Positions 13,812-63,562 of a stretch of DNA of 64,000 nt are shown here, one piece after another. Source of the stretch: Pseudoalteromonas sp. XMcav2-N (GTDB lineage: Bacteria; Pseudomonadota; Gammaproteobacteria; Enterobacterales; Alteromonadaceae). The stretch lies in assembly GCF_024124545.1 (NCBI RefSeq), contig NZ_JAMXSF010000011.1:62001-126000 (forward strand), in the 5' to 3' direction. The position numbers and the translations under genes were made by a program. The notes beneath the pieces are model-generated. The model saw nothing but the letters and a program-made list of their open reading frames with translations. It did not search any database and was not told where the DNA came from. Numbering within the stretch: position 1 is the first letter of the stretch; every line of letters begins with the position of its first letter.

Positions 13812-15503
13812 TCAGTCGGGCTGCGATGTCGTCTCAGTGTCTTTTTGTAACTTGAGTTTACTGACCACAGACCAGGCTTCAAGCATGACCAGTACACTGA
13901 CAACAAGTACCACAATATCGAGGCCAACCAATAGCCAGTTACCCTGTTCATAGTATTCACCCAGCTTGATCACCCCGGCGAAGAAAGCCATCAGAATCAC
14001 AAAAGTCATGGGGATCAGGGTAAACTTGGCAGGGCGACCCAGTTTAATCAGATACACAGAAATTACCAGTAAAGTCAGACTTGCGAGGATCTGGTTGGTG
14101 GAGCCAAACAGTGGCCAGATAATCATACCGCCGCTACCCGATGCCCCACCGGCACCAAATGCCAGCAACAAGCAACACCCGACAGCAACCAAAGTTGCAA
14201 GTACGCCATTTTTCAGAGCATTCAGTTGGTAGATCTCTCCCCATTCCTGAATAATATAACGCTGTAGGCGTACACCAGAGTCCATCGTGGTACCCGCAAA
14301 TAACACCACCATCACCGCCAGCAGGGTCGAAGCGATTTCCACCGATAATCCCCAGCCATTGCTGATCAGATTCGCGCCCCCCTGAATAAAAGCGCCCACA
14401 CTACCAGCGCCAAGGTGACTGTATATTTCATGCCACTCTTCAGGCGATACCGCCAGCATAACACCACTTACGGCCACCAAAGTGATCAGAGCCAGCGACC
14501 CCTCACCCACAGCCCCCAGATAACCAACAAAACGGCCATCCGTCTCTTTGTCTAGCTGTTTGGAACTGGTGCCAGAGGATACAATTCCATGAAATCCGGA
14601 TACGGCTCCACAAGCGATAGTGACAAACAACAAAGGAATAATACTCGGTGTATCCACTGCCGTCTGAGTATTAAATGCCGGCGCCGTAATATCAGGCATC
14701 ACCACAAACACCGCACCATACAACAGCACCAGACCGACCAGCAGTTGCATGCCATTAATGAAGTCTCTCGGCTGCAGCAACATCCAGACAGGTAATAAAG
14801 ATGCAACGGCGGCATAAATAAACAAGATAATGATCCAGTTTGCTTTGTCGGCCAGACCAAACAACTCACTGGGCAGTGCCAGCGGCATACCCGACCCCAC
14901 ATAAATACTAGCATACAAGATGGCGACCCCGATCACACACAAGGGCACCAACGGCACCTGGCGTTTGAGCAACTGGCCAATGACCAGTGCTACTAAAATC
15001 GCAGCCCACGCGGGGAATACCGCACTGGGGTTGGCAACAAAAGAGTTGGCAATCACCACCCCGAATACCGCATTGACCATCAACAGGACCAAAAAGACCA
15101 CAATCATAAATAATGACCGGGTGCGTTTTCCTATCACAGTTTCAGACAGGGCACCCATAGACTTGCCTTTGTGACGGGCACTGGCCCAAAGGGCACCCAT
15201 ATCGTGCACACCAGCAAAAAAGATGGTGCCAAACACCACCCACAAAACGGCTGGCACCCAGCCCCAATATACTGCTATGGCTGGGCCAACAATAGGCGCC
15301 GCCCCGGCTACAGATGTGAAATGGTGTCCCCAGAGTACGACTTTGTTGGTTGGTACATAGTCGACTCCGTCGTTTAACTCATGCGCCGGTGTCACGAACT
15401 TATCGTCCATTTTAAATATTTTTTCGGCGATGAACTTTGAATAGACAAACCAGCCAAACAGCATACCCAGTATGCCAAACAGCACGATCATGATTGACTG
15501 CAT
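13812..15503 (-). CDS. CstA-family peptide transporter
   Basis: A very hydrophobic protein of 563 residues with about 15-16 predicted membrane segments. The N-terminal GWFVYSKFIAEKIFKMDD and the WGHHFTSVAGAAPIVGPAIAVYWGW block are diagnostic of the carbon-starvation CstA family. Family members CstA and BtsT in E. coli import peptides or pyruvate; this protein is shorter than both (about 700 residues). AGGGGG precedes the ATG by about seven bases. The M17 aminopeptidase gene downstream on the same strand suggests a peptide substrate, which is an inference. E. coli cstA is CRP-controlled; no convincing CRP site was identified here. Confidence 0.9.
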   Translation of the reverse strand: MQSIMIVLFGILGMLFGWFVYSKFIAEKIFKMDDKFVTPAHELNDGVDYVPTNKVVLWGHHFTSVAGAAPIVGPAIAVYWGWVPAVLWVVFGTIFFAGVHDMGALWASARHKGKSMGALSETVIGKRTRSLFMIVVFLVLLMVNAVFGVVIANSFVANPSAVFPAWAAILVALVIGQLLKRQVPLVPLCVIGVAILYASIYVGSGMPLALPSELFGLADKANWIIILFIYAAVASLLPVWMLLQPRDFINGMQLLVGLVLLYGAVFVVMPDITAPAFNTQTAVDTPSIIPLLFVTIACGAVSGFHGIVSSGTSSKQLDKETDGRFVGYLGAVGEGSLALITLVAVSGVMLAVSPEEWHEIYSHLGAGSVGAFIQGGANLISNGWGLSVEIASTLLAVMVVLFAGTTMDSGVRLQRYIIQEWGEIYQLNALKNGVLATLVAVGCCLLLAFGAGGASGSGGMIIWPLFGSTNQILASLTLLVISVYLIKLGRPAKFTLIPMTFVILMAFFAGVIKLGEYYEQGNWLLVGLDIVVLVVSVLVMLEAWSVVSKLKLQKDTETTSQPD

Positions 15504-26500: not shown

Positions 26501-28028
26501 CTTCACTGTAAAAGACCGGATCCTGCGGGTGCGTGCTGAGAGGCTTATAAAAGCCGTAACTCAGGAAAGGGTCAAACCGATCAAACTCCTCTCCCAGCTT
26601 GGTCAACCTGGCTGTATTAATATCAAACACATAAAAACCGGTTTTCTCATCCACCAGATACAGCTGCCCGTCACCTACAATCACAGCCCCTTTGACAAAT
26701 CCCGACAATACCGACGTGGCCGCTTCATCCTGAGCCTGAGGCCGATAAATCTCTTCAGAGTGTGGTTCAAACACAAACAAGCCACGGTTACTGCTAAGCC
26801 AGAGCTTGTCCTGATAGTTCAGCAACCCAAAAATAGTGAACTCGGGATAAAAGCCGTCCCCCAGAAAACCGGCCAAATACTGTTCTGACTCACGGGACTG
26901 AGGATCGTAACGGGTTAAGCCATCTCGAGTCCCTGCCCAGATATAGCCATCGTACTCGACCAGCCCCCAGACAGTACCTTTAGAAAAGCGGCCCTGAACA
27001 TTACCCGGGTGGACGTTGTCAAACCCCTGGGATTCAGCGGGCAAATAAAAAGCACCGTCTTTTTTCGTTGCAATCCAGATCCCTCCAAAGTCATCCCGGA
27101 TAAAATAGATCACACTGCTATCTGAAACGGCATAACGACTGTCGGTCAGGCGCATATCACGCTGTACTTGACCACTGGCGATATCATAGTGCATTAACCC
27201 CAGATCTGTCCCAAGTAAGAGCTGTGTACCATTACGTTCTATTTGCCAGATATTGAGCTCTTCGATAAGGGTTTTATACGGAACCTCAGCATCAAAATCG
27301 CGGCGCAAAGCGGCTATATCTAATTGATACATGCCTATGACGGCACCCAATATCAGGGTGTTGTCATCCAGTAAATGCAGAGATTTGGTATTGGTTTGAA
27401 AAGGGTGCGTGATCTGATCTCTGTGCTTAAGCGTACGCAGTTCATCCGTTTGAATGTTATATACAAACAAACGTTCTGCAGATGCAATAAAGAGTAAATT
27501 CTCATGTTTAAGCAGGCCGCGTACCGCCAATTGTGGATCTTCTACCGGCAACCTTATTTCTTTAGTGATTTCACCGGTCCGAGTATCCATTACAGCAACA
27601 TTTTGTGCTCGTCCCAACCAAAGTTCATGTTTACTCTTACTGAGCATCTGGAATACGCTATTCTCAAAGTAGTCTTCTTCTGACTCAGGAGCAGAGGTAT
27701 AACGACGATAGCTATCTTGGTCAGGATCGTAGCTAAACAGTCCAGCTCGCCCTGAGGCAATCCAGATAAGGCCACTTTCATCCTGATATATGCGGTCTAT
27801 CTGCATTTTATTCAGGTCCTGATTAGGCCCTCCGACCTCCAATACCTGATAACCGTCATACCGATTCAGTCCACCTTCCGTTGCCAGCCAAAGGTAACCG
27901 TTATCATCTATCAGTAAGGTATTGACATAGCTTTGAGACAGCCCTTCTGCGGGAGACAAGCGTGCTACCTGTGCCTGAGGCACAGACGCAAATATAAGAA
28001 GGATAAAACTGAGGATTATTCGCAACAT
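23565..28028 (-). CDS. beta-propeller sensor with PAS, degenerate GGDEF and EAL domains
   Basis: The protein has 1487 residues, starting at ATG 28028. A signal peptide is followed by about 12-14 Reg_prop repeats (such as DNGYLWLATEGGLNRYDG) and a Y_Y_Y-like domain around 650-745, forming a two-component-type periplasmic sensor. One membrane segment lies near 750-770 (FCYVLLGAALFAFWV). In the cytoplasm are PAS/PAC domains, a GGDEF domain whose signature is changed to GNERDF, and an EAL domain with EVLLRW, NLSALDFQ, EITES, DDFGTGYSSL, KIDRSFV and AEGVE. The catalytic residues of c-di-GMP phosphodiesterase are kept while the cyclase site is lost. It should hydrolyse c-di-GMP in response to an outside signal, perhaps a glycan as in some Reg_prop sensors. 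It ends an operon with the GNAT gene two bases upstream. Confidence 0.92.
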   Translation of the reverse strand: MLRIILSFILLIFASVPQAQVARLSPAEGLSQSYVNTLLIDDNGYLWLATEGGLNRYDGYQVLEVGGPNQDLNKMQIDRIYQDESGLIWIASGRAGLFSYDPDQDSYRRYTSAPESEEDYFENSVFQMLSKSKHELWLGRAQNVAVMDTRTGEITKEIRLPVEDPQLAVRGLLKHENLLFIASAERLFVYNIQTDELRTLKHRDQITHPFQTNTKSLHLLDDNTLILGAVIGMYQLDIAALRRDFDAEVPYKTLIEELNIWQIERNGTQLLLGTDLGLMHYDIASGQVQRDMRLTDSRYAVSDSSVIYFIRDDFGGIWIATKKDGAFYLPAESQGFDNVHPGNVQGRFSKGTVWGLVEYDGYIWAGTRDGLTRYDPQSRESEQYLAGFLGDGFYPEFTIFGLLNYQDKLWLSSNRGLFVFEPHSEEIYRPQAQDEAATSVLSGFVKGAVIVGDGQLYLVDEKTGFYVFDINTARLTKLGEEFDRFDPFLSYGFYKPLSTHPQDPVFYSEGRLFRYDTQAHRLVEIYQVPKAHKQSAVDLLSYTIDKHNVLWLSFARHGLVRLTADGYELLPMPNEQHTVTNNILYEMVQDDVGMIWMSSHQGIWRLDPDNFHLQGFTTADGLMSNEFNGGASVKLADGRIGYGSLQGFTLFDPEVHRPTKSLLSKVNITDVDLMSRDILPSGLKSFSYIELNHDDIGLEVSFSAMAFTLQERIVYEYQLSGEQRILSRNSNRVVFPKLSPGNYRLKVWAKDPLTGDYTPPAQLEIAVHYPVWRAPWALFCYVLLGAALFAFWVHRKNKVAGMILAAHRETQNSETRLKMALEGSNSGVWDWQSGSHLVYQPRLVSDLGYSNDSIVLDEYLELIHPQDRALFRIEWLEFVSTEKGFIDCTYRLRHINGQWRWYKDYGKVMSWQDGVPVQVAGTYTNLTRERVFEERATLFGAAFEQTRDWVMIFDKHLRILACNKALQSAFSVSEAPSSSTSVTLGLERHVRMKYLREISKLKVGELYVAEETLRLPSGEKRQVLLKISATEDKHYILVLTDISKQKRTEKELYQLANYDALTKLPNKVLFMDRVQHAIEQARLSRQPLAIIAIKFSRLQRFADTYGNDFLALVTQKLATNLQCCFREVDSLAIGNERDFYILMEQLTGVEQVMRYIHCLLERFEKGFEIEQQQVHVKAKLGIAMFPEDACDAFDLNQAAETALNHARQSLMTDYQFYHREINEQVQRALAIEQALLKAYQEEAFRNHYQPIINASNMSVEGFEVLLRWPQDPSYSIEELAHTAEQTGIITRVMLQTLERALADLKQWHASHPELYISVNLSALDFQYDDLLVRIKEILIRNQVDGRYLVFEITESVMMADAQQAISRMHELRALGCRLYMDDFGTGYSSLTYLKQYPVDALKIDRSFVSDIGRDKEHEVIIHSTLSLAHSLGKYCVAEGVEHMEQLSFLRMLGCERFQGYLFSKALPAPEAGELLMRNWHQVFTRAS

Positions 28029-28030
28029 AG

Positions 28031-28459
28031 TCAATTCTTATCGGGTTTTATATATTGCATTGCCTGGAGTTTACGGCCTTGCGCAACATATGTGTGGTAT
28101 TTCTCTGCCAGCGCCTGAGGCAACTCCTCAGGCTCAATTTCTTCAAAACCTAACCCTGCATAAAAAGTAGCAAGATGACGATAAGCAAAAGTAAATAAAG
28201 GGGTGTGCTGCTGAGCCAGCACCGCCACTAATAACTGCCGGGCCAGCCCTTTGCCTCTGTGCTCGGGGACAACCAAAACCGTGGATAACAAATCACTGCC
28301 TGCAACGCATTGCACTCTGCATGCCGCAATAATTTCTGTGCTCTTTAGCACCCAGTTTTGGTCCTGTCGGGTCGCCTTTCCCCTCGCCTTATGGGCTTGG
28401 TAAAACTTATTCACCAGTGGCGTCTGAATAGCAGGTAAAATCCCAGCAATGATCTCCAT
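28031..28459 (-). CDS. GNAT-family N-acetyltransferase
   Basis: The protein has 142 residues. The core motif VLVVPEHRGKGLARQLL fits the acetyl-CoA binding motif A (R/Q-x-x-G-x-G/A) and FYAGLGFEEI the C-terminal motif. The substrate is unknown. The gene lies in a tight operon: two bases separate its stop from the start of the large EAL sensor, and two bases separate it from the small gene upstream. Confidence 0.85.
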   Translation of the reverse strand: MEIIAGILPAIQTPLVNKFYQAHKARGKATRQDQNWVLKSTEIIAACRVQCVAGSDLLSTVLVVPEHRGKGLARQLLVAVLAQQHTPLFTFAYRHLATFYAGLGFEEIEPEELPQALAEKYHTYVAQGRKLQAMQYIKPDKN

Positions 28460-28461
28460 GG

Positions 28462-28665
28462 CTATGCCAGCATCAACCCCAGGTAAAACTCAAACTTTTC
28501 CTTCAATACCGTCTGCTCAGAGATAGGACGTTGATTAATGGCGTCATAAATGGCCTCTCGGCTATTTTTACCGCGTTTTATTTGATAGGCCCAGAATGAC
28601 GCCTCGTACTCTAACTGAATTTGATATTTATCTTGTCGTGATAAATTACACAGGTTATAGCTCAT
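28462..28665 (-). CDS. small conserved protein, possibly DUF3283 family
   Basis: The protein has 67 residues, starts MSYNLCNLSRQDKYQIQLEYEA and is rich in charged helices, with no membrane segment or Cys cluster beyond one Cys. The start and overall pattern (N-terminal NLCNL, a central Lys-rich KRGKNSREAI, C-terminal KEKFEFYLGL) recall the DUF3283 family of Vibrio and Shewanella; I am recalling that and could not check it. It is the first gene of a three-gene operon with the GNAT and EAL sensor genes. Function unknown. Confidence 0.7.
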   Translation of the reverse strand: MSYNLCNLSRQDKYQIQLEYEASFWAYQIKRGKNSREAIYDAINQRPISEQTVLKEKFEFYLGLMLA

Positions 28666-28823
28666 AGTAAATTTGGTTACAGCAATCTCTGTAAAAAGTG
28701 TATCATAATTACGCTAAGGTGTATCCGATCATGCAAAATGTGCCGCCATCGAGTAAGCAAAATTGCTTCGTCTCGAAGGCAAATAGCGTGACAGGATGGT
28801 TCGATTTTCAATAAGGAGATCCA

Positions 28824-29507
28824 TTGCGAATTTTCAGCTTGATATTGCTTTACTGTCTGAGTTTGAAAAGTATGGCATCAGATAACCGGACACTCTACTT
28901 CAACCGTCCGGCCGATACCCCCCAGGCCAGGTACGTTATCGAATTACTGCAAACCGCTTATCAACAGTTGGGGTACCAACTTGAGCTGGTCGATTTCAAC
29001 CGGCAAAGTGCATTAATTGCAGCCAATGATGGCGCTTTGGATGGCCAGCTTGGTCGGATCCATGGTGTAACTCAGGCTTACCCGAACCTACTTAAAGTTC
29101 GTTTTCCTCTATACACGTTTAATCTACAGTTGCTAAGCCGTTGCCTGAGTTGCACATTCCAGCAACTTGACTCTTTGGTCATACAGAGTGGTTATCTGGT
29201 TGCCAATCAGTACCTGGAGACGACTCCGTTTAATGGCCAGCTAATAGAAGTAAAAAACAACATTACTCAGCTTAATCTGGTTACTCAGGGCAAAGTACAG
29301 GCTGCACTGGTCGTTGACTTTCACTTGCGTGAGTACCTTGCAGACATTGATTTAGAGTCTTTTAAAATAGAAACCCTGTTGACCATCGAGACTTTTCACT
29401 ACTTGCATCAAAAACATAAAACGCTGATCCCACAACTAGAACAAGCATTGAATCAACTGGCTAAGAAAGGAACGGTAACCATGTTAAAAGCTAAGTATCA
29501 GATTTAA
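28824..29507 (+). CDS. periplasmic solute-binding protein, family 3-like
   Basis: The protein has 227 residues with a signal peptide ending near MASDN. The repeat of alpha/beta segments, VIELLQTAYQQLGYQLELVDF near the N-terminus and VTQGKVQAALVVDFHLREYL later, resembles short SBP_bac_3-like proteins found singly in marine gammaproteobacteria. No permease or ATPase genes are next to it, so it may be a sensor accessory rather than a transport component. The start codon is TTG at 28824, five bases after AAGGAG. Its 3' end overlaps the convergent DUF1289 gene by 17 bases. Confidence 0.75.
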   Translation: MRIFSLILLYCLSLKSMASDNRTLYFNRPADTPQARYVIELLQTAYQQLGYQLELVDFNRQSALIAANDGALDGQLGRIHGVTQAYPNLLKVRFPLYTFNLQLLSRCLSCTFQQLDSLVIQSGYLVANQYLETTPFNGQLIEVKNNITQLNLVTQGKVQAALVVDFHLREYLADIDLESFKIETLLTIETFHYLHQKHKTLIPQLEQALNQLAKKGTVTMLKAKYQI

Positions 29508-29760
29508 AGAAATCGTCTTGCTCTGCCGCTTGTTCTGCGCCTTTTGATGGCATGTCACTATGGCGTTTTTTCGCTGCCATCACACGTTTTTGTCGCTGCG
29601 CACACAGCTCGATCACTTTGCGTTTTTGTTGCTCAGTTAGGGCATGCCAGTGAAAGCGCTCTTCACGACTGCGAAAGCACCCTTTACAGTAACCCCGGTT
29701 GTTCACTTCACAGATCCCGCGGCAAGGGCTGGGGATCTCAAAAATCTCAATCTGTTCCAT
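29491..29760 (-). CDS. DUF1289 family protein
   Basis: The protein has 89 residues with four Cys in SPCRGICEVNNRGYCKGC, then CFRSREERFHWHALTEQQK. This pattern is diagnostic of DUF1289 (YdhL-like) proteins, which probably bind a metal or Fe-S centre; the function is not established. The C-terminal 30 residues are polar and likely disordered. It overlaps the convergent solute-binding protein gene by 17 bases at the 3' end. Confidence 0.85.
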   Translation of the reverse strand: MEQIEIFEIPSPCRGICEVNNRGYCKGCFRSREERFHWHALTEQQKRKVIELCAQRQKRVMAAKKRHSDMPSKGAEQAAEQDDFFKSDT

Positions 29761-30188
29761 ATGGACTCAAAAACGTGCGCTTAATTCGGCCTGCAGCCAA
29801 ATTGACGCCCGGTTAATGCCTAGCCGAATTCATTTTTGATTATAATACATACCGTAAACCGCATTGTATAATTAGGATAAAGCGACTCATGAAAAATGGC
29901 TTGCCTTTTTCTGCTTTTTGCCTTGTATTGCTTGAGCAGATTTTCACAGTGGCAATATTGAAATGATAGCAATGAGATATAATGACTAAACAATCTCTAT
30001 TGGCCTTGAAGGGGCAGCACAAACAGACGGTAAACAGGTTTCTGCCTTGATCGAAGCAGGGCCTCATTCAGTGAAGAGTTTTCGTTACTTCTGTCGGCCA
30101 AAGCCCAAGGGAAAGCCGGAGCACCTCAAATGGACGAAACCACCTGTGTTGTCAATGCGATGAATGAAAGGTAAGTAAAGCAGAAAGT
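29761..30188. other. long intergenic region before the tRNA-Phe/Thr cluster
   Basis: About 430 bases hold no gene I can support. Near 29982 a 22-codon plus-strand ORF starts MTKQSLLALKGQ, and in another frame codons from about 29996 to 30163 stay open for over 50 residues without a start. This could be a decayed gene or chance. No terminator or promoter pair was assigned apart from the tRNA terminator at the right edge. Confidence 0.4.
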
Positions 30189-30216
30189 AAAAAGCCCCGC
30201 TAATGCGAGGCTTTTT
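30189..30216 (-). terminator. terminator of the tRNA-Phe/Thr operon
   Basis: Arms 30189-30200 and 30205-30216 form a 12-bp stem around TAAT. In the minus-strand RNA the one mismatch becomes a G-U pair, and the stem is followed by a U tract. It directly follows the last tRNA-Phe. Confidence 0.9.
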
Positions 30217-30221
30217 AATAA

Positions 30222-30297
30222 TGGTGCCCAGAGGCGGAATCGAACCACCGACACGAGGATTTTCAATCCTCTGCTCTACCGACTGAGCTATCTGGGC
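30222..30297 (-). tRNA. tRNA-Phe (GAA), copy 1
   Basis: 76 bases including encoded CCA. The minus strand starts GCCCAGATAGCTCAGTCGG and has anticodon GAA in the loop TGAAAA; the T arm is GGTTCGATTCC. It is the last gene of a six-tRNA operon and identical to three other copies. Confidence 0.98.
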
Positions 30298-30302
30298 TTA
30301 AA

Positions 30303-30378
<76 letters not shown>

Positions 30379-30392
30379 GCACCTTTTAAAAA

Positions 30393-30468
30393 TGGTGCCC
30401 AGAGGCGGAATCGAACCACCGACACGAGGATTTTCAATCCTCTGCTCTACCGACTGAGCTATCTGGGC
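30393..30468 (-). tRNA. tRNA-Phe (GAA), copy 2
   Basis: Identical in sequence to copy 1, with encoded CCA. It is separated from the downstream tRNA-Thr by 14 bases. Confidence 0.98.
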
Positions 30469-30529
30469 TTAAATTGGTTATATTGTGCTGCTTTAAAGCA
30501 AGAATCTGAATTTCAGACTCAAAATATAA

Positions 30530-30605
30530 TGGTGCCCAGAGGCGGAATCGAACCACCGACACGAGGATTTTCAATCCTCTGCTCTACCGACTGAGCTATC
30601 TGGGC
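30530..30605 (-). tRNA. tRNA-Phe (GAA), copy 3
   Basis: Identical to the other tRNA-Phe copies. A 61-base spacer (30469-30529) separates it from copy 2 and marks the junction of the two Phe-Thr-Phe blocks. Confidence 0.98.
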
Positions 30606-30610
30606 TTAAA

Positions 30611-30686
<76 letters not shown>

Positions 30687-30700
30687 GCACCTTTTAAAAA

Positions 30701-30776
30701 TGGTGCCCAGAGGCGGAATCGAACCACCGACACGAGGATTTTCAATCCTCTGCTCTACCGACTGAGCTATCTGGGC
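30701..30776 (-). tRNA. tRNA-Phe (GAA), copy 4
   Basis: First gene of the operon, starting ten bases after the promoter -10 box. Identical to the other copies. Confidence 0.98.
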
Positions 30777-30785
30777 GTGCGGCGT

Positions 30786-30814
30786 ATTAAACGGGTTTTG
30801 CCTTGTTAAGTCAA
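30786..30814 (-). promoter_or_regulatory. promoter of the tRNA-Phe/Thr operon
   Basis: TTGACT (30809-30814) and TTTAAT (30786-30791) are separated by 17 bases on the minus strand. The GC-rich discriminator ACGCCGCAC that follows is typical of stable-RNA promoters under stringent (ppGpp) control. Confidence 0.88.
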
Positions 30815-30929
30815 CTTTTTTTTTAAACTCCGTGTTTGACTGAACACTATTCCGACAAAACACGTTTAATCGATTAAATTTCCCGCTTTATTTGGCAATT
30901 TAAAGCCCTTTGTAACCTGGTTTTATCAC

Positions 30930-62681: not shown

Positions 62682-63203
62682 ATGCAGATCGGGTTATTTT
62701 ACGGTTCAACTACCTGCTACACAGAAATGGCAGCAGAAAAAATGCAGGAGATCATAGGTAAAGACATTCTGTCGCTCCACAATATCAAAGATGAGCCGTT
62801 AAAAAACGCAGAGCAATTCGACTTTGTGATTTTTGGTATCTCAACCTGGGATTTCGGCGAGTTGCAGGAAGACTGGGAATCGCATTGGGATGATATCGAC
62901 GAGGTTGATCTCGCAGGCATAACCATCGCACTGTTTGGTATGGGTGACCAGCAAGGCTATGGACAGTGGTTTCAAGATGCACTGGGTATGTTGCACGATA
63001 AAATTGCCCCACAAGGTGTTAACTTTATAGGCTACTGGCCCAATACTGCCGATTATGAGTTTGAAGCATCTAAAGCACTTACGGAAGATAAAAGCCAGTT
63101 TGTAGGCCTTGCCCTGGACGAAGACAGCCAGTACGAAAAGAGTGACGAACGCATCGCTGTCTGGATTGAGCAAATCCTGACAGAATATAGCGAGTCGCTG
63201 TAA
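62682..63203 (+). CDS. fldB: flavodoxin FldB
   Basis: The protein has 173 residues, the FldB length. [14 protein letters not shown] forms the FMN phosphate loop, [16 protein letters not shown] and [18 protein letters not shown] are the flavin-contacting loops. It carries electrons in reductive enzymes. It is divergent from xerD, 78 bases away, matching the E. coli fldB-xerD arrangement. Confidence 0.94.
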
Positions 63204-63243: not shown

Positions 63244-63379
63244 AAAAACAATTCATTTACACTGATTAACATTCAACCTATACAACGAGCCATTTATAGT
63301 TCAGTATAAATTTTGCACAGCTCTGCAAACTAATTGTAGAGGCTGGCATATAATCAACTCAATTATAAAAGGACTAATC

Positions 63380-63562
63380 ATGAAGTTAACTCTGACCAAG
63401 AAGAACTACAAAAACCTGTCTCAGCAATCTCACACAATCAACAATAAGATGACGCCGCAAGTTGGTGGTGGTAACGGTGCATGCTCAGGTGGTGCGGGCT
63501 GTCATATGGACCAGCAGCCAGAACCTGGTACTGGCGGTGGCTCTGTGTGTATTACCTGGTAA
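63380..63562 (+). CDS. 60-residue peptide resembling a RiPP precursor
   Basis: The peptide has 60 residues. It begins MKLTLTKKNYKNLSQQ, which resembles the Lys/Leu-rich leader starts (KLxLxKKxxKxL) of class I lanthipeptide-type and related natural-product precursors. Next is TPQVGGG, a possible double-Gly processing site, then a short Gly-rich core with three Cys (residues 35, 41 and 57), Ser, Thr and a C-terminal ITW. AAAGGA lies seven bases before the ATG and TATAAT at 63349-63354 is a likely -10 box. No modifying enzyme is seen inside the window; it could lie further right or be encoded elsewhere. The call as RiPP precursor is an inference from the leader and core; the gene itself is well supported. 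Confidence 0.68.
   Translation: MKLTLTKKNYKNLSQQSHTINNKMTPQVGGGNGACSGGAGCHMDQQPEPGTGGGSVCITW

Follow-up and report, generated by a model that had tools for sequence, protein, structure and literature searches.

According to the parts of the cited papers available to us, class I lanthipeptides are already known from the genera considered here. They include the viridisins of Thalassomonas viridans and thalassomonasins A and B of T. actiniarum (PMC11433236), pseudorosins A-C of Pseudoalteromonas flavipulchra S16, which has the dehydratase PsfB (PMC12819058), and PciA of P. citrea DSM 8771, a member of the same genus as the organism analyzed here (PMC9993889). PciA is reported to have required no additional tRNA-Glu (PMC9993889). 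A class I cluster has also been reported from P. viridis BBR56, the available sections of that report naming no precursor (PMC11015633). In the prochlorosin system of marine cyanobacteria, one synthetase, ProcM, serves many remote precursors that have a conserved leader and variable cores (PMC7268733, PMC11251773). The system described here is similar in having many dispersed precursors per synthetase, a conserved leader and a variable core. It differs in its components: prochlorosins combine a class II LanM with Nif11 leaders, whereas here LanB and LanC are combined with another leader. Promiscuous LanMs have a CCG motif (PMC12328550), whereas the LanCs here keep Cys-Cys-His motifs instead. 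We found no account of dispersed class I precursors in the literature searched. Since the original lanthipeptide papers (Vermeulen 2022, Thetsana 2022 and Wang 2023) lie outside that literature, the apparent novelty of a dispersed, prochlorosin-like class I repertoire is provisional.

The window, a stretch of 64,000 nucleotides on contig C2 of the draft genome of Pseudoalteromonas sp. XMcav2-N, contains an open reading frame of 60 residues on the forward strand (63380-63562), which we read from the sequence as a real gene (Table 1). We consider, with a probability of roughly 0.86, that it encodes a class I lanthipeptide precursor, one of about sixty that are dispersed over the genome, share a leader, differ in their cores and are served by a single LanB/LanC pair. 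An earlier note on this DNA had described the reading frame with a good ribosome site, a double-Gly site and three core cysteines, all of which are present. AGGA lies at most 18 nt from the start codon in 47 of the 55 family members tested. The TATAAT that the same note regarded as a -10 box is there too, but its role as a promoter is unproven, because no well-spaced -35 element was found by eye upstream of the reading frame and TATAAT-like sites occur at expectation in relatives (a 5/6 match upstream in 39 of 55, against 39.6 expected). A common upstream motif or regulon of the precursors was rejected on the same grounds, the top 6-8-mers each being found in at most 9 of the 55 upstream regions. 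The peptide alone gave no match in Pfam and NCBIfam at E ≤ 10.

Table 1 Features of the precursor gene in the window and of the lan operon in the same genome (G000).
Feature	Position	Strand	Description and basis
Leader peptide	63380..63472	+	31 aa, MKLTLTKKNYKNLSQQSHTINNKMTPQVGGG, double-Gly cleavage site at its end; aligned leaders
Core peptide and stop codon	63473..63562	+	29 aa: 3 Cys, 2 Ser, 2 Thr
Shine-Dalgarno-like AAAAGGA	63367..63373	+	Sequence reading
TATAAT, possible -10 box	63349..63354	+	Sequence reading; no family-wide enrichment behind it
lan operon: LanB, LanC, C39-peptidase ABC exporter, HlyD	G000:C5 146556-154529	-	Pfam domains

The gene is flanked by a flavodoxin gene (62682-63203) and by a gene for an AraC regulator that crosses the end of the window. 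Extension of the sequence to the right, as the earlier note had proposed, shows the AraC gene running on to a total of 366 aa. The maturation and export genes that might have stood just past the edge are located remotely, on another contig (C5), and profile searches found no LanB, LanC-like or C39 matches on the window contig. At the xerD-flavodoxin-araC site of P. rubra S2599 we found the same gene, with a core identical to that of the window although silent changes separate the two genes. The same site in P. rubra S2676 keeps araC and an apparent fragment of the distal core, left by a deletion, and the site in OOF1S-7 and S2471 contains no trace of a precursor, araC still being there. Twenty-nine genomes were examined, and in the remaining 25 neither a credible precursor nor an araC relative was seen at up to 1.5 kb from the flavodoxin gene. 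Because S2676, OOF1S-7 and S2471 retain the AraC gene at this position without an intact precursor, we rejected it as a partner of the system. It is probably not part of the peptide system, its place next to the precursor being incidental.

The window peptide has 45 matches at E ≤ 10 in its own genome (G000, a draft assembly of 5.70 Mb in 44 contigs), nearly all of them within the leader half. A partial match on C18 was set aside as chance, as it sits within a larger reading frame (27639-30830) that is presumably RND-like by sequence. A leader profile (A2), built from 40 leaders, matched 62 places in the genome at E ≤ 0.01, a number that rises to 65 when the threshold is relaxed to E ≤ 1. The matches are spread over 20 of the 44 contigs, mostly singly with some small groups, and have the consensus MKLxLxKKxLKxLSxxxxxLxxxxTPQVAGG. 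This leader family is more than chance, since the 62 matches compare with none in 130 of 147 same-family genomes. The observed repertoire was characterized on 56 of the 62 members, six being omitted whose match starts inside the leader. Mean pairwise identity is 47% for the leaders and 18.7% for the cores, compared with 16.1% for shuffled cores; 8.5% of core pairs lie above the 95th percentile of the shuffles, so that a few cores are related, mostly those of neighbours. The cores are 14-51 residues long (median 27), with Cys accounting for 11.4% of core residues versus 0.2% of leader residues, and 54 of the 56 contain both Cys and Ser/Thr. The other two are without Cys, so ring formation is impossible for some members. 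At least three of the 62 matches look broken, those at C9:101070 and C3:146989 being out of frame with the likely start and that at C22:170097 having no start.

When 36 members were compared with Pfam and NCBIfam, three matched NF038158 weakly (best E 3.9e-4) and one matched NF038153 weakly (E 0.044), both being NCBIfam models of class I lanthipeptide leaders. The remaining 33, the window peptide included, gave no match to NF038158 at E ≤ 1, and no Nif11-type leader was found among the 36 at the same threshold. Judged by these searches, the leader as such is without a good model in either collection. The closest core found to the window core comes from P. denitrificans (L167), where 0.7 kb separates its precursor from lanC. 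The two cores share 14 identities over 27-29 residues, and their alignment score of 64 was reached by none of 5000 shuffles. The RiPP-like leader and core shape proposed in the earlier note is borne out by the 62 leader matches and by lan-adjacent copies in relatives, and the reading of the window peptide as a leader-core RiPP precursor is supported.

The observed enzyme set contains a single LanB, as PF04738 finds one gene in the whole genome, in the lan operon. Profile search shows this LanB to be full length (1049 aa) with both Lant_dehydr domains, PF04738 making up the glutamylation/elimination set with PF14028, and the RPTPFGLFSG motif is largely invariant among 10 LanBs. The stand-alone LanC (412 aa, PF05147) carries WCYG and CHG motifs, which we take to be zinc ligands. 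WCxG...CHG is kept in 76 of 76 LanC-like reading frames examined, a set that counts some genomes twice and includes a few from outside Gammaproteobacteria. In structure comparisons, LanB matched NisB and related proteins, and LanC matched NisC. In this genome lanB has no precursor nearer than about 8 kb, so the link between peptide and enzymes rests on the leader, on co-occurrence and on relatives. A precursor beside lanB/lanC is usual but not essential for class I, and its absence here is shared with the class II prochlorosins. PF03412 finds one further C39 exporter in the genome, on C24, where it is paired with an HlyD-like protein (L041, 1554-10021). Two leader-family members without Cys and a Trans_reg_C protein lie nearby, and there is no LanB at the locus. 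A 12-locus cluster of related ABC reading frames, considered as C39-type transporters near many precursors, was rejected; since the genome has only two C39 domains, most of the cluster must be other ABC proteins.

Comparison across genomes revealed a close association of the leader with LanB. The leader profile divided 147 same-family genomes into 17 with the leader and 130 without. LanB and a LANC_like gene accompany the leader in all 17, whereas 125 of the 130 have no LanB, the LanB-like genes of the other five each being divergent (E 1e-18 to 1e-35), and LANC_like was found in seven of the 130 (Fisher p for the leader/LanB association = 3.5e-18, relatedness not corrected). The same-genus genomes G064, G098 and G127 contain neither LanB nor leader. 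The check that the earlier note had suggested, for copies beside LanB/LanC in relatives, was positive: 13 of the 17 genomes with the leader have an intact precursor near lanC, lanB or the exporter. Because the same leader thus adjoins lan genes, we infer that the window gene is a remote substrate of LanB/LanC. The lan-adjacent copy in G042 is interrupted by TAG, the precursor in G018 lies about 8 kb from lanB, and no precursor was seen near lanB in G040. The G040 locus (L108, C229 10613-13877) has lanB split into several short frames and a short lanC frame, and one leader match persists in that genome.

The family might instead consist of unmodified or disulfide-bonded double-Gly peptides released through a C39 exporter, in the manner of class II microcins, with LanB/LanC acting on the adjacent few only. 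We consider this unlikely, although double-Gly leaders and C39 exporters are both present, a V at position -4 relative to the double Gly is as expected of C39 substrates, and the two Cys-free cores among 56 fit unmodified peptides. Microcins of this kind would have no modifying enzyme linked to them, whereas here LanB/LanC are found in the genomes that have the leader and lie next to it in relatives. The leader tracks LanB (17/17 genomes with the leader against 5/130 without), one leader profile is common to remote and lanB-adjacent precursors, and the cores are rich in Thr (10.5%) and Ser (7.2%, 56 members) besides Cys.

To place the system more widely, we scanned named genomes with a LanB profile and took the best 80 of 229 relatives, corresponding to 78 distinct loci. 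The genera among these best 80 are Pseudoalteromonas, Thalassomonas, Rheinheimera, Alkalimonas, Arsukibacterium, Colwellia, Shewanella, Bowmanella and others, followed by Myxococcales, Chitinophaga and others at about 31-34% identity. A leader search in 49 LanB-bearing genomes drawn from the same 80 found the leader in 45 of 45 gammaproteobacterial genomes and in 0 of 4 others. The number of matches in the 45 ranges from 1 to 76 per genome, with 76 in P. luteoviolacea H33-S, 70 in MMG020, 58 in P. rubra S2599, 44 in S2676, 21 in P. flavipulchra and 2 in each of three Rheinheimera. Exactly one PF04738 match was obtained in 39 of the 45 and more than one, some weak, in six; in both H33-S and MMG020 a single LanB is accompanied by a single LANC_like gene. 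The P. rubra-like loci L123, L124, L134 and L147 contain no precursor in the 7-8 kb flanks of lanB. A class-wide sample contained the leader in 2 of 369 genomes at E ≤ 0.001, one being G000 and the other having a LanC-like gene directly after the precursor (L312).

Our genome also encodes, on C25, a second PF05147 protein, a class III-like LanKC of 884 aa with RamC_N, kinase and LANC_like domains. It is accompanied by an ABC protein and an HlyD protein (L105/L116), and four leader matches, two of them weak, lie on the contig. Modification of the dispersed precursors by another enzyme, such as this LanKC-like synthetase, is very improbable: the LanKC and the second C39 exporter on C24 could serve some members, but P. 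rubra S2676 and P. luteoviolacea H33-S, for all their 44 and 76 leader matches, carry only one LANC_like gene per genome, adjoining lanB.

Several relatives show variations in enzymes or cores. In Colwellia sp. TT2012 LanB is present but a LANC_like gene was not found at E ≤ 0.001, and the one leader match in the genome (L169, precursor at 13847, forward strand) has a core without Cys. This is perhaps a dehydration-only peptide, a suggestive single case. Extra lanC genes are present in G013 (L110, 9800-11269), G061 (L109, 14929-16149) and G124 (L112, 8742-9962), within stretches that contain no lanB and, in G013, directly after a precursor; these may give different ring patterns. Bowmanella denitrificans encodes a 130-aa precursor (L099, 7356-7748 in G096; also L171) whose core has a run of GxTC repeats, making it a candidate for many small methyllanthionine rings. 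The first 1 kb of four loci from P. luteoviolacea strains and sp. SMS1 (L126, L127, L141 and L151) contains 3-4 neighbouring precursors with Cys-free cores, most of which are Ser/Thr-rich (SSDTSVT...), about 2 kb from exporter genes.

The thalassomonasins and viridisins have the same leader profile and the same type of LanB/LanC as the system of the window genome. The peptide family that the earlier note suggested might be undescribed is not new in kind: it consists of class I lanthipeptide precursors, and loci that match the thalassomonasins are among its relatives. G061 and G095 each have two precursors beside lanB, with cores of 25 aa/3 Cys and 26 aa/2 Cys, in agreement with thalassomonasins A and B in length and Cys count as given in the part of the paper available (PMC11433236). 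G124 has three lan-side precursors with 4, 2 and 2 Cys, as given there for VdsA1-3, the first core being 26 aa by our count versus 25 for VdsA1 (PMC11433236). G095 corresponds to Thalassomonas sp. RHCl1, and G061 and G124 would be the two named species, T. actiniarum and T. viridans. In its available part, that paper covers in-cluster precursors only (PMC11433236), whereas G061, G095 and G124 have 29, 29 and 23 leader matches. A P. flavipulchra strain other than S16 (L145) has a LanB with 63% identity to that of the window genome.

The window genome is P. rubra-like, its LanB being 97% identical to those of S2676 and S2599. We recovered 62 members in our genome, 56 in S2599 and 44 in S2676, of which 60, 54 and 42 were delimited, all three being draft assemblies. 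Orthologue pairs, defined as reciprocal with at least 60% identity, numbered 40 with S2599 and 37 with S2676. Pooled pN/pS was 0.10 for the leader and 0.13 for the core versus S2599, and 0.12 and 0.16 versus S2676, values biased towards conservation by the choice of pairs at 60% identity or more. The low core values indicate that cores are held between orthologues though different between paralogues. Of our 60 precursors, 20 are unpaired versus S2599 and 23 versus S2676. Cores are conserved between the paired strains, and the repertoire itself turns over. The alternative that a spreading gene has left mainly decaying copies, few of which give functional products, is, in spite of the broken matches, the remnant that a deletion has left at the window site of S2676 and the rapid turnover between strains, hardly credible given these core pN/pS values among pairs so chosen and the identity of the window core in S2599 despite silent changes.

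Taken as a class I precursor family, the about sixty peptides are probably for the most part made into ring-bearing products by one remote enzyme pair. The shared leader would dock on the single LanB, which would dehydrate core Ser/Thr by tRNA-Glu-dependent glutamylation followed by elimination. LanC would then add core Cys to the dehydro residues to form (methyl)lanthionine rings, and the C39-peptidase ABC exporter, together with HlyD, would cut after the double Gly and secrete the product. We infer every one of these steps, from recognition of the leader to cleavage, as well as any biological activity of the products, with dehydration, ring closure and Gly-Gly cleavage taken from the established chemistry of the LanB, LanC and C39 families. 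The enzymes would be conserved, while precursors would come and go, purifying selection acting on those that are kept. Each strain would thus make its own blend, as in the class II prochlorosin system but with class I enzymes. We regard it as fairly likely, at a lower level of confidence than the assignment of the window gene, that the system is a class I counterpart of the prochlorosins, in which one LanB/LanC with canonical zinc motifs modifies up to about 76 cores genome-wide, encoded in gain-and-loss cassettes.

If this is true, the strategy of one enzyme and many substrates is not peculiar to class II LanM, and a LanB/LanC pair accepting dozens of unrelated cores would be a natural tool for ring libraries. 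Cluster-based genome mining would miss most of these lanthipeptides; since tools that inspect the enzyme neighbourhood see few or none of the precursors, the predicted lanthipeptides of common marine bacteria would multiply many-fold. With cassettes gained and lost, sister strains with near-identical enzymes would secrete different lanthipeptide blends. The purpose of prochlorosin repertoires is described as a question still open in the part of the literature available (PMC11251773), and strain-level turnover of the kind seen here would offer a way to probe the purpose of such repertoires.
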